Source: Luteithermobacter gelatinilyticus
GTDB lineage: Bacteria; Pseudomonadota; Alphaproteobacteria; Sphingomonadales; Emcibacteraceae
Direction of reading: 5' to 3'
NCBI RefSeq assembly: GCF_005849285.1
Contig: NZ_CP040517.1
Coordinates: forward strand, 192,501 to 256,500
Length of the DNA stretch: 64,000 nucleotides
The translations under genes were made by a program, and so were the position numbers. Below, in pieces: positions 48,003 through 51,067 of the stretch. The notes under the pieces are model-generated. The model made no database searches, was not told the origin of the DNA, and was given only the letters and a program-made list of their open reading frames with translations. Position 1 is the first letter of the stretch. Each line of letters begins with the position of its first letter.

Positions 48003-48133
48003 GCGGCGCCGTTTACGGTAATGGAAATGAGGATAAGGGGAGAAGAAAGCCTAGGTTCAATCGACATTCATACTTCACAAGATGTGTTTTATGTGATTCA
48101 TAGGGTTTCACCTTTAATGTTGGAGCCCTTTTG

Positions 48134-48505
48134 ATGTCGAAGCGCTATGAACTGACGACCACACAATGGAACCGGATCGCGCCGCTCTTGCCCGGCAAGG
48201 CGGGTGATCCCGGCCGTACCGCGGTCGATAACCGGCAATTTGTCAACGGGGTGCTGTGGGTGCTGCGCTCGGGGGCCCACTGGCACGATCTGCCGCCCCG
48301 CTACGGCAAGTGGAAAACTGTCCACAAGCGCTTCACGCGCTGGGCGAAGCGCGGGGTCTGGGACCGGATTTTCAATGACCTGGTGGAGGATCCCGACAAT
48401 GATTATGTGATGCTGGATGCCACACTGGTCCGCGCCCATCAGCAGGCAGCGACCGGAAAAGGGGGGACCAAAATCAGGCTCTGGGGCGTTCCCGAGGAGG
48501 ACTGA
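48134..48505 (+). CDS. IS5/IS427 transposase, first reading frame
   Basis: A 123-aa N-terminal part of the transposase: the DUF4096-like region (LTTTQWNRIAPLLPGKAGDP, FVNGVLWVLRSGAHWHDLPP, YGKWKTVHKRFTRWAKRGVW), then the first catalytic Asp in VMLDATLVRAH. Full-length protein requires a -1 frameshift. A slippery stretch of four A and six G (GGAAAAGGGGGGACC, about 48456-48470) lies near the end. Read in the -1 frame after it, the DNA gives QALGRSRGGLTTK, the normal continuation in this family. Confidence 0.88.
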   Translation: MSKRYELTTTQWNRIAPLLPGKAGDPGRTAVDNRQFVNGVLWVLRSGAHWHDLPPRYGKWKTVHKRFTRWAKRGVWDRIFNDLVEDPDNDYVMLDATLVRAHQQAATGKGGTKIRLWGVPEED

Positions 48506-48519
48506 CCACCAAAGTTCAT

Positions 48520-48888
48520 ATGGCGAGCGATGCCCTTGGGCGCCCCCTCCGGTTCATCCTGACACCGGGACAGCGGGGCGACATCACACAGGCTCCCGCC
48601 TTGCTTGACGGGTTGAGCGCCAGCCATGTACTGGCCGATAAAGCCTATGACAGCAATGCCCTGCGCCAGATCATCAGGGATATGGGGGCAGAGGCGGTGA
48701 TCCCGTCAAACCGGACCAGAAAAATCGAGATCCCCTACGATAAAACCATCTATAAGGCGCGAAACGCCATCGAGCGAGCCTTCAACAAACTCAAACATTT
48801 CCGCCGCTTCGCAACCCGATATGATCGAAAAGCCTGCAACTTCCTCGCCTTCACCCTCCTCGCCGCATCAATCATATGGATGCGATGA
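48520..48888 (+). CDS. IS5/IS427 transposase, second reading frame
   Basis: A 122-aa C-terminal catalytic part in the -1 frame. It carries the second Asp in HVLADKAYDSNALR and the Glu in NAIERAFNKLKHFRRFATRY, completing the DDE triad. The ATG at 48520 lies inside the domain; the part is presumably made only as a fusion by frameshifting at 48456-48470. The stop is inside the right terminal repeat. The element looks intact and may be active. Confidence 0.88.
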   Translation: MASDALGRPLRFILTPGQRGDITQAPALLDGLSASHVLADKAYDSNALRQIIRDMGAEAVIPSNRTRKIEIPYDKTIYKARNAIERAFNKLKHFRRFATRYDRKACNFLAFTLLAASIIWMR

Positions 48889-48901
48889 ATGTCGATTCGG
48901 C

Positions 48902-49068
48902 CTAGTGTGGTGAATTTGAAGTTCCTGTTATTGATTATGTTATATGACTTAGGAACTTCAAATTCAGAAACCACACTAGAGTCAAATAATTAACTAGTCT
49001 TCTTGTTGACTCTGAAATTCGAATAGCCTGCTACAAATATGATACGAATTTCAGAGTCAGAAGACTAG
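48902..49068. repeat. 167-bp double-hairpin element, left copy
   Basis: Two long imperfect hairpins, each bounded by CTAG. Hairpin A: CTAGTGTGGT-GAATTTGAAGTTCC pairs with GGAACTTCAAATTC-AGAA-ACCACACTAG. Hairpin B: CTAGTCTTC-TTGT-TGACTCTGAAATTCG pairs with CGAATTTCAGAGTCAGAAGACTAG. About 14 bp separate them. Each hairpin has one 4-base insertion in one arm. No coding capacity. The last bases supply the stop codon of the cupin gene on the minus strand. A nearly identical copy is at 50901. Confidence 0.9.
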
Positions 49069-49562
49069 TCGTCCTGTTCGTGGAACGTGTTGACGATCTG
49101 GATATGATCGGCGGCATTATTGGCTTTGGCCATCTCATACATCAGACGGGCGTCCACCACCACGGCGATGGAGCCGTCTTCATTATACCCCACAAGCGGA
49201 CCATGGGCGATGGCAAACATGGTGGTGCCATCCGGAGAATCCGGCTGGTGGATCGAGCCACTGGCTTCCAGAACGTAACTGCCCACACCGCCGCGGTCAT
49301 CGTCCCCATAGCCGAACTCCCCTTCGGTTACATAGGCTTCGATGCCGCCGATATGATGATGTACCGGCGCTTCGATCCCGGGGTCCACTTTGAGCATGAT
49401 GGTAAACCCGCCGGTCATTTCGTTGATGTTCAGCAGCTTGAAATAGGTCCCTTCCATAACCCAGTTGGTCCAGGGCAGTTTGTGAGTGTCCAAAAAAGCC
49501 TTGCGGTGCGGGATTAACGGTTTGATGGCGTTTTTATGGGATAATTGGGTTTGTTCTGACAT
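49065..49562 (-). CDS. Cupin-domain protein
   Basis: A 165-aa single-cupin protein. The core runs over GGFTIMLKVDPGIEAPVHHH with IGGIEAYVTEGEFGYGDDD and then SGSIHQPDSPDG, giving three or four metal-binding His and a Glu. Similar small cupins act as dioxygenases, isomerases or sensors. GGAAGGAGA before the ATG at 49562 fixes the start. The stop codon TAG is formed by the end of the adjacent 167-bp repeat, so the original C-terminus may have been replaced. Its only close neighbour on the strand is the LuxR-type regulator upstream. Confidence 0.8.
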   Translation of the reverse strand: MSEQTQLSHKNAIKPLIPHRKAFLDTHKLPWTNWVMEGTYFKLLNINEMTGGFTIMLKVDPGIEAPVHHHIGGIEAYVTEGEFGYGDDDRGGVGSYVLEASGSIHQPDSPDGTTMFAIAHGPLVGYNEDGSIAVVVDARLMYEMAKANNAADHIQIVNTFHEQDD

Positions 49563-49574
49563 GAAGTCTCCTTC

Positions 49575-49622
49575 CGTAAATTTGGCCGTAAATTTGGCCG
49601 TAAATTTGGCCTTAGATTTGGC
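49575..49622. repeat. Four tandem 12-bp repeats upstream of the cupin gene
   Basis: CGTAAATTTGGC three times without change (49575-49610) and once as CTTAGATTTGGC, between the cupin start and the LuxR-type gene. A 12-bp period is near one helical turn and may affect promoter geometry. Confidence 0.8.
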
Positions 49623-49718
49623 CGTCGTGACCGGCCATAAGGTGATCATCGGAGGAAACTATAAAAGGACACTGGCCGGTCTCCTATGACGGAAACCACT
49701 CATTTTCCGGAAACAGGG

Positions 49719-50867
49719 TCATGCCGAAGGGGAGAGATGGAAAGCAAGACTGGTCCGGTTTCTGACACCCACTTTCTGGTATATGGACCGCAGATGGTTT
49801 TCCACCGTACGCACACTGATGCACAGGGTTTCGGAAATTGCCGTATTGGTGGCGCCCATGACCACCAGTGACGCAATATCCGTTTCCCGTTTCGACAGGC
49901 CGAAACGATCAATCGCACTGGCGGCAACGGCCGCAGGGGCCTTTTTGCAGGTTCTCAGCAGCAAACGCCGAGCGCCCGGATTGGTGGGTGGTCTGAGGGT
50001 TTCGACTTCTATTGTGATGTCGCCAATCTCCAAATGCGTTTTGGCCCGCCTGTTGGGGATAAGGGCTTCTTTTTCCTGATGCCGTCTCAGCATATCCCTC
50101 AGCGGTTCGCCGGGGATGATCCTGCCTTTCTGTGTTTCCTGAACACCGATCGCTGGTTTCAGATGGTTGTGTTCCAGATGAGTCCGGCCGGCGGGATTGG
50201 CAAAGATCACCTCATCATTCTCGTTCAGTATGACAAGGCCCTGTTCTGTTGGTTCTGTGCCGATGGCGGAAACAATCATGGTCTGATCGTCCAGGCGTTC
50301 CTTGAGATGCAGATTGTGAAAGGCCATGTACAGGCTGGGGCCCAGAAGGCTGATCTTCCGCGCGTCTGTTTCGGTGAACGGGCGGTGGCAATAACGATGC
50401 AGGCCGATAATGTATATCATGGAACTGTCAAGCGGCGTGGGAATGCCCAGCGCCAGCACCTGGTGAATGGAATTGGGGCGCAGAAATTCATTGTAATACT
50501 GCCCCCGCGAAAATTGTGACGGGTCGATGATATGGTCCAGCGTAAAGGTAAAACACTTGCTGCCATTCAGCCGGTTGCGCAGCCGGGTGGTGTTAAAGGC
50601 ATGCGGCAGCACCGGGTCATCCGATTGAAAATTCCGGGCATAGCTGTGCAGGCAGGTTGGCTGAATGTTGCGGCTGATAAAATTGCCGGCCCGAATATGG
50701 TGGCCATCGTCTTTTTGTACAATACCGAAGATGGAGGTTTCCGCGCGCACCAGATCCGCAAGAGGCCCCAGAATATTGTGTTTGATATCACCATAGGTTG
50801 ACGTGTCGGCGATCCGGTTGCTGGTCACGTGGAATTCGTCCAGCGAAAGCGTGTCAGAAAAAGCCAT
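49719..50867 (-). CDS. LuxR-family transcription regulator with PAS-like sensor
   Basis: A 382-aa regulator. The C-terminal LuxR/FixJ helix-turn-helix is clear: GLSKRETDIASLVVMGATNT, AISETLCISVRTVENHLRSI and YQKVGVRNR. The preceding region GLVILNENDEVIFANPAGRT is PAS-like, and the first 200 residues may form a GAF-like sensor (HYCHRPFTETDARKISLLGP resembles the end of such domains). AGGAGTT precedes the ATG. It points toward the cupin gene, which it may control. Both genes lie between the two copies of the 167-bp element. Confidence 0.85.
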   Translation of the reverse strand: MAFSDTLSLDEFHVTSNRIADTSTYGDIKHNILGPLADLVRAETSIFGIVQKDDGHHIRAGNFISRNIQPTCLHSYARNFQSDDPVLPHAFNTTRLRNRLNGSKCFTFTLDHIIDPSQFSRGQYYNEFLRPNSIHQVLALGIPTPLDSSMIYIIGLHRYCHRPFTETDARKISLLGPSLYMAFHNLHLKERLDDQTMIVSAIGTEPTEQGLVILNENDEVIFANPAGRTHLEHNHLKPAIGVQETQKGRIIPGEPLRDMLRRHQEKEALIPNRRAKTHLEIGDITIEVETLRPPTNPGARRLLLRTCKKAPAAVAASAIDRFGLSKRETDIASLVVMGATNTAISETLCISVRTVENHLRSIYQKVGVRNRTSLAFHLSPSA

Positions 50868-50900
50868 ATGTTGAACTCCTAGCCTGAAGTACAGCCCGCC

Positions 50901-51067
50901 CTAGTGTGGTGAATTTGAAGTTCCTGTTATTGATTATGTCATACGACTTAGGAACTTCAAATTCAGAAACCACACTAGAGTCAAATAATTAACTAGTCTT
51001 CTTGTTGACTCTGAAATTCGAATAGCCTGCTACAAATATGATACGAATTTCAGAGTCAGAAGACTAG
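50901..51067. repeat. 167-bp double-hairpin element, right copy
   Basis: Same length, order and orientation as the copy at 48902. The only differences I see are GTCATACGAC here against GTTATATGAC there, in the loop of hairpin A. Begins and ends with CTAG. It lies between the divergent LuxR-type gene and TonB receptor 3. Confidence 0.9.

Follow-up and report, generated by a model that had tools for sequence, protein, structure and literature searches.

The locus lies in the window, that is, the whole stretch of 64,000 nucleotides of Luteithermobacter gelatinilyticus DNA that was analysed. It consists of a cupin gene and a LuxR-type regulator gene, both on the minus strand, enclosed by two copies of a double-hairpin element in direct orientation (Table 1). 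The two copies differ at 2 of 167 positions. An earlier note, made from the sequence alone, had described two near-identical direct copies around exactly these two genes, each copy made of two unlike CTAG-bounded hairpins, both of them with a single 4-base arm insertion. Our analysis bears out this description, coordinates included, and places both insertions in the inner arm. The left CTAG of copy 1 is the insertion point of an IS5-family insertion sequence (IS), which duplicated TA there and re-formed this CTAG. On the other side, element and gene touch: the TAG stop codon of the cupin gene falls within the right CTAG of copy 1.

Table 1. Features of the double-hairpin locus (window positions) and examples of a second MITE family (contig positions)
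Feature	Position	Strand	Basis
Copy 1 (c1), double-hairpin element, CTAG to CTAG	48902..49068	+	sequence, genome search
Hairpin 1 of copy 1, 78 nt	48902..48979	+	fold and class-wide covariation
Linker of copy 1, AGTCAAATAATTAA, A+T-rich, 14 nt	48980..48993	+	
Hairpin 2 of copy 1, 75 nt	48994..49068	+	fold
Copy 2 (c2), between LuxR-type gene and TonB-receptor gene	50901..51067	+	
Cupin gene (Cupin_7, E=2e-25)	49065..49649	-	domain match
LuxR-type regulator gene (GerE, E=4e-14)	49719..50867	-	domain match
IS5-family IS (DUF4096 + DDE, IS427-like), IR GGTTCAATCGACATTCAT / GGCCGAATCGACATTCAT	48054..48902	+	
272-bp MITE examples on the contig of this genome	1636780-1637050; 941406-941679; about 25 further near-full copies		

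In hairpin 1 of copy 1, the outer arm reads CTAGTGTGGT-GAATTTGAAGTTCCT and the inner arm carries a 4-nt one-sided insertion before ACCACACTAG. In hairpin 2, the inner arm is CTAGTCTTCT-TGTT-GACTCTGAAATTCG and the outer arm has no insertion. Each hairpin thus has one such insertion, always in the inner (linker-side) arm, and CTAG at both ends, which amounts to four CTAG per copy. In the window as a whole CTAG is about seven-fold depleted, with 36 occurrences against ~243 expected from base composition. The DNA fold of the element (-43.4 kcal/mol versus -12.4 for shuffles; z = -10.9, 0/200) is far beyond chance.

Copies across the genome

A whole-genome search (3.15 Mb, one contig) found 13 full copies at 87-100% identity, and partial ones besides. 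Only one difference separates c3, ~0.94 Mb distant, from either of copies 1 and 2. Since they are at least as near to c3 as to each other, a local duplication does not account for the pair, and the local gene conversion suggested in the earlier note is not needed to explain their identity. The 13 full dispersed copies also refute the possibility, allowed for in that note, that the unit occurs only here through simple local duplication. Its idea of a recent arrival is right for the spread within the genome, where pairwise comparison puts 12 copies within 1-11 differences of one another, but not for the element type, which is old and class-wide. Other close pairs of copies lie 5-8 kb apart around other DNA (577858/585961 and 1179448/1184633). 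In c10 and c11, the 4-nt insertion of hairpin 1 is found in its two arms alike. Two partial copies are interrupted where hairpin 1 meets the linker, in one case by an IS427-like IS and in the other by a MITE from a second family, 272 bp long and CTAG-ended. Of six IS427-like insertions that we examined in this genome, four lie at repeat CTAGs (three in this element, one in the 272-bp MITE). That the elements supply otherwise rare CTAG sites may be why IS5-family insertions collect in them.

The second MITE family is CTAG-ended, ~272 bp long, bounded by the inverted repeat CTAGAGTGAATTGTGAATAGGTTG and present in at least 27 near-full copies in this genome. Its insertion point is in many cases a CTAG within the double-hairpin element, and it adjoins hairpin 2 in several copies. 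There are also solo hairpins of 40 bp that are composed of its two ends.

Distribution and conserved structure

BLAST recovered relatives with ~70% identity and the same architecture from Roseibium/Labrenzia plasmids and other alphaproteobacteria. A covariance model built from ten sequences and applied at E <= 1e-6 found the ~165-bp double-hairpin architecture in 21 of the 385 genomes of the class that were searched. Scanning GTDB genomes with a 23-base pattern gave matches on at least 115 contigs, among them Brucella, Mesorhizobium, Roseibium and Sphingobium; all 80 records listed were alphaproteobacterial or unclassified Proteobacteria, and the double hairpin was present at most of the loci. 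No description of the element was found in Rfam or the open literature, either by sequence or by terms.

Copies are most conspicuous in B. daejeonensis, which has dozens of them, some in tandem arrays with a period of 163 in which neighbours share one CTAG per junction. At L268-L271 of this species, two or three double-hairpin units are arranged head to tail. A CTAGTGGATT/CTAGTGGTCT subfamily coexists there with the CTAGTGTGGT subfamily. Four other loci (L141, L172, L174 and L185) hold short hairpins made up of just the outer arms of hairpins 1 and 2. Both ends of the element are retained in them, and they appear to derive from it by internal deletion. One contig from IMG/VR, classed as viral (L199), has a copy with flanks resembling those of c13 in L. 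gelatinilyticus, and may represent host DNA or a prophage region.

The architecture varies little across the family. Length ranges from 163 to 170 bp and hairpins from 73 to 81 nt, the linker is mostly 13-14 nt (consensus AATCATAAANTTG), and nearly all members have an inner bulge of 3-4 nt. By eye, the outer arms CTAGTGTGGT..GAAGTTC and CTAGTCTTCT..GAAATTC can be recognised as related, in the manner of terminal inverted repeats. The covariance model picks up an element on its reverse strand as well, and two of the 80 aligned matches are such readings of elements already counted. In this alignment, 39 of 49 stem pairs show compensatory double changes, and 98.5% of cells pair, compared to 88.6% in shuffles (0/500 shuffles). 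The right-hand CTAG is almost invariant, its last base being G in 77/78. In the copies labelled G161, the outer bases have diverged yet still pair. Such pairing could be kept either by a need for the hairpin form or by quasi-palindrome correction. The two-arm insertions of c10 and c11 suggest that correction does happen; the fact that the bulge stays one-sided throughout the class despite it points to some need for the hairpin form.

Insertion sites

The earlier note had asked whether empty sites exist and whether CTAG is duplicated. We joined the flanks of Brucella copies, searched 35 Brucella genomes with them and found empty sites in Brucella relatives. At the first locus, the empty site contains a single tetramer, CTAG, TTAG or TTAA; at the second it is TTAG, at the third CTAA (in eleven genomes) and at the fourth CTGG. 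Filled sites have CTAG-163 bp-CTAG in place of the one tetramer. At the first three loci, the empty-site tetramers, read by eye from aligned flanks, are native stop codons. One YTAR-like tetramer when empty and two CTAG when filled agree with duplication of the site, and are consistent with a target-site duplication at the element of 2 or 4 bp. At two further loci (the second L130 copy and L093), the empty site instead holds CGCG or another tetramer, which may reflect target relaxation or later change. For the Roseibium plasmids, no empty site was found, all nine close records being filled.

Related Brucella species differ in which copies they have. At one locus (L263), one species displays a precise loss of hairpin 2 with one CTAG-like tetramer left, and in another Brucella species the same insertion point is occupied by a different, 107-bp double hairpin. 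The element is dispersed, and its insertion into a YTAR-like tetranucleotide, in many cases a stop codon, leaves one CTAG on each side. By ORF heuristics, none of the elements examined is inside a gene. All kinds of genes adjoin the copies, and no neighbour recurs across genomes.

Comparison with known repeats

The 107-bp repeat is a close counterpart. It is CTAG-bounded, with 101 bp between two TA, and comprises a first hairpin whose inner arm has a one-sided insertion, an A+T-rich linker and a second hairpin without a bulge; Y-TA and TA-R flank most copies. Two Brucella genomes have about 40 matches each, and three non-Brucella genomes searched have none. It shares with our element the two hairpins, the one-sided inner insertion, the A+T-rich linker, YTAR flanks with TA and, in different Brucella species, the same insertion point. 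However, the two differ in sequence and length, the second hairpin of the 107-bp repeat lacks the bulge, its flanking Y and R are variable, and the 167-bp element is class-wide. Halling and Bricker reportedly described two repeats of Brucella, Bru-RS1 and Bru-RS2, in 1994. In later papers, these appear as repeated palindromic elements of 103 and 105/106 bp (PMC3163539, PMC10800456), and Bru-RS1 as a target of IS711 (PMC3163539). Our element, at 167 bp, is too long for either (about 103-106 bp), whereas its 107-bp relative fits and, judging by length, plan and Brucella host, is probably Bru-RS1. A further parallel is that the 167-bp element, like Bru-RS1 for IS711, is a target of IS427-like IS.

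Other repeat families are more remote. REP/BIME elements with RAYT (IS200/IS605-type Y1) are likewise intergenic and non-coding, with inverted hairpin pairs, asymmetric bulges and tandem arrays, but our element has much longer stems, CTAG on both sides and no consistent RAYT. Correia elements of Neisseria target TA and start with TAGTGGATT, which resembles the start of one Brucella subfamily of the element, although they belong to another class of bacteria and have a different interior. RIME elements of Rhizobium have two palindromes; the covariance model gave 0 matches in S. meliloti pSymB, which we presume to contain RIMEs, and identity with them was rejected on this basis. What the element has in common with RIMEs (cited in PMC2573895) is that both are intergenic palindromic repeats of alphaproteobacteria.

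Nature of the element and its proposed movement

This is a non-autonomous element of the MITE type that moves or once moved, a variant of palindromic MITE-like repeats such as Bru-RS. It has the features of MITEs in being short, non-coding, dispersed and multi-copy, in its terminal inverted repeats and in the target-site duplication seen from the empty sites. The earlier note had proposed a non-autonomous mobile element, and the 13 full dispersed copies, the copies in many alphaproteobacteria and the empty sites all support this proposal. Unusual for a MITE is the fixed body, in which an outer-short/inner-long hairpin is followed by the 13-14 nt linker and a mirrored inner-long/outer-short hairpin.

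As to its movement, we consider it reasonably probable that the element is a non-autonomous MITE inserted at YTAR-like sites, with an IS5-family transposase in trans as the candidate mobiliser. Such a transposase would act on the two outer ends (TA|G...C|TA), and the central TA of the target would be duplicated on insertion. The best candidate would be a TA-targeting DDE enzyme of the IS427/IS711 group, since both the target rule and the terminal bases match. IS711 inserts at YTAR with TA duplication (PMC3163539), and the IS427-like copies of this genome with both ends located show TA duplication and G...C terminal bases; YTAR target and G...C ends are thus shared by the element with the IS5 family and its derived MITEs. 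Unlike such MITEs, the element has a body that does not resemble a shortened IS, and no IS with its inverted repeats was found. DUF4096 genes are enriched in carriers (12/21 versus 99/364, p=0.006, the genomes not being phylogenetically independent), but are absent from 9 of the 21 carriers, and six of the 21 lack DUF4096, Y1 and DDE_3 altogether. In such carriers the mobiliser would have to be another enzyme, or one since lost. Neither the 118 pattern matches nor this genome yielded an autonomous element with the same ends. MITEs are often orphaned, without an autonomous partner. Further points weigh against the IS5-type reading. Given the almost invariant right CTAG and the YTAR-variant empty sites, plain 2-bp TA duplication would need later correction, and a DDE transposase would have no need of a perfectly structured two-hairpin body. 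The CGCG or other tetramers of the two less clear empty sites also count against it. An IS630/DDE_3 partner was rejected (absent from 9/21 carriers), as was a RAYT partner, which is not consistent (Y1_Tnp absent from 12/20).

The complementarity of the stems would mean either that the hairpin form matters for movement or that quasi-palindrome correction copies one arm onto the other. If correction is the whole explanation, the covariation would be a mutational trace on a dead, ancient repeat that spread in the past and whose mobiliser was lost in most lineages. We regard this as unlikely, though deserving of attention: it would account for the two-arm insertions of c10 and c11, the diverged but paired outer bases of G161 and the six carriers without any of the three transposase families, but unchecked correction should erase the asymmetry of the inner-arm insertion, which persists in nearly all copies, and the near identity of the copies found here and in B. 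daejeonensis implies that they spread not long ago.

Movement as folded single-stranded DNA by a hairpin-recognising Y1/RAYT or other enzyme, with the inner-arm bulges and CTAG as recognition and cleavage marks, seems doubtful to us. Two inverted hairpins, a linker and an asymmetric bulge do resemble the BIME plan (PMC3733652), and the strong stem covariation, the tandem arrays with a common boundary tetramer and the precise loss of one hairpin at L263 fit as well. However, the majority of carriers tested lack Y1_Tnp genes, the hairpins are 75-78 nt long compared to 20-40 bp for REP, CTAG flanks both sides instead of a one-sided GTAG tag, and no gene recurs beside the element. A bolder version, which we hold to be about equally doubtful, is that of a class-wide superfamily including Bru-RS, inserted at YTAR by some enzyme that reads the folded pair of hairpins, with their asymmetric inner bulges and fixed linker, in a transposition mode outside the known RAYT and DDE MITE systems.

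Less plausible still is a structured RNA or bidirectional terminator selected at gene ends, with spread only secondary. The 98.5% pairing with compensatory changes could be read this way, as could the fact that roughly one in three of the gene 3' ends next to an element coincide with its CTAG (20/62, an approximate count from ORF heuristics in which an ORF shortened by the insertion also seems to end at the element). Nevertheless, no Rfam family matches the element at or above gathering score (sub-threshold matches only), it has no T-tract terminators, divergent regions are not avoided (30 tandem, 16 convergent and 14 divergent gene arrangements by the same heuristics), and related species differ in the copies they have. 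Finally, the composite transposon or mobile cassette of cupin and LuxR-type genes entertained in the earlier note is highly improbable: although two direct copies flank exactly two genes, copies in other genomes have no recurring neighbour, some distant copies are as close to c1 and c2 as these are to each other, and other pairs enclose other DNA. Both genes are best seen as bystanders, and the position of the element around them looks like chance.

Through this element, scattered palindromic repeats of alphaproteobacteria, very probably including the IS711 hot-spot repeats of Brucella, become tied to one architecture. Class-wide spread, a rigid fold and a missing mobiliser are the notable traits of the element, and the defined target together with measurable empty sites makes the question of the mobiliser testable.

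Two minor observations concern the neighbours of copy 1. The transposase of the adjacent IS5-family IS (48131-48888) is split in two frames around AAAAGGGGGG, an arrangement that suggests programmed frameshifting. In the upstream or N-terminal region of the cupin gene, a 12-bp sequence, CCGTAAATTTGG, is repeated in tandem (49574-49621) and translates as TAKF repeats if the upstream cupin start is used.
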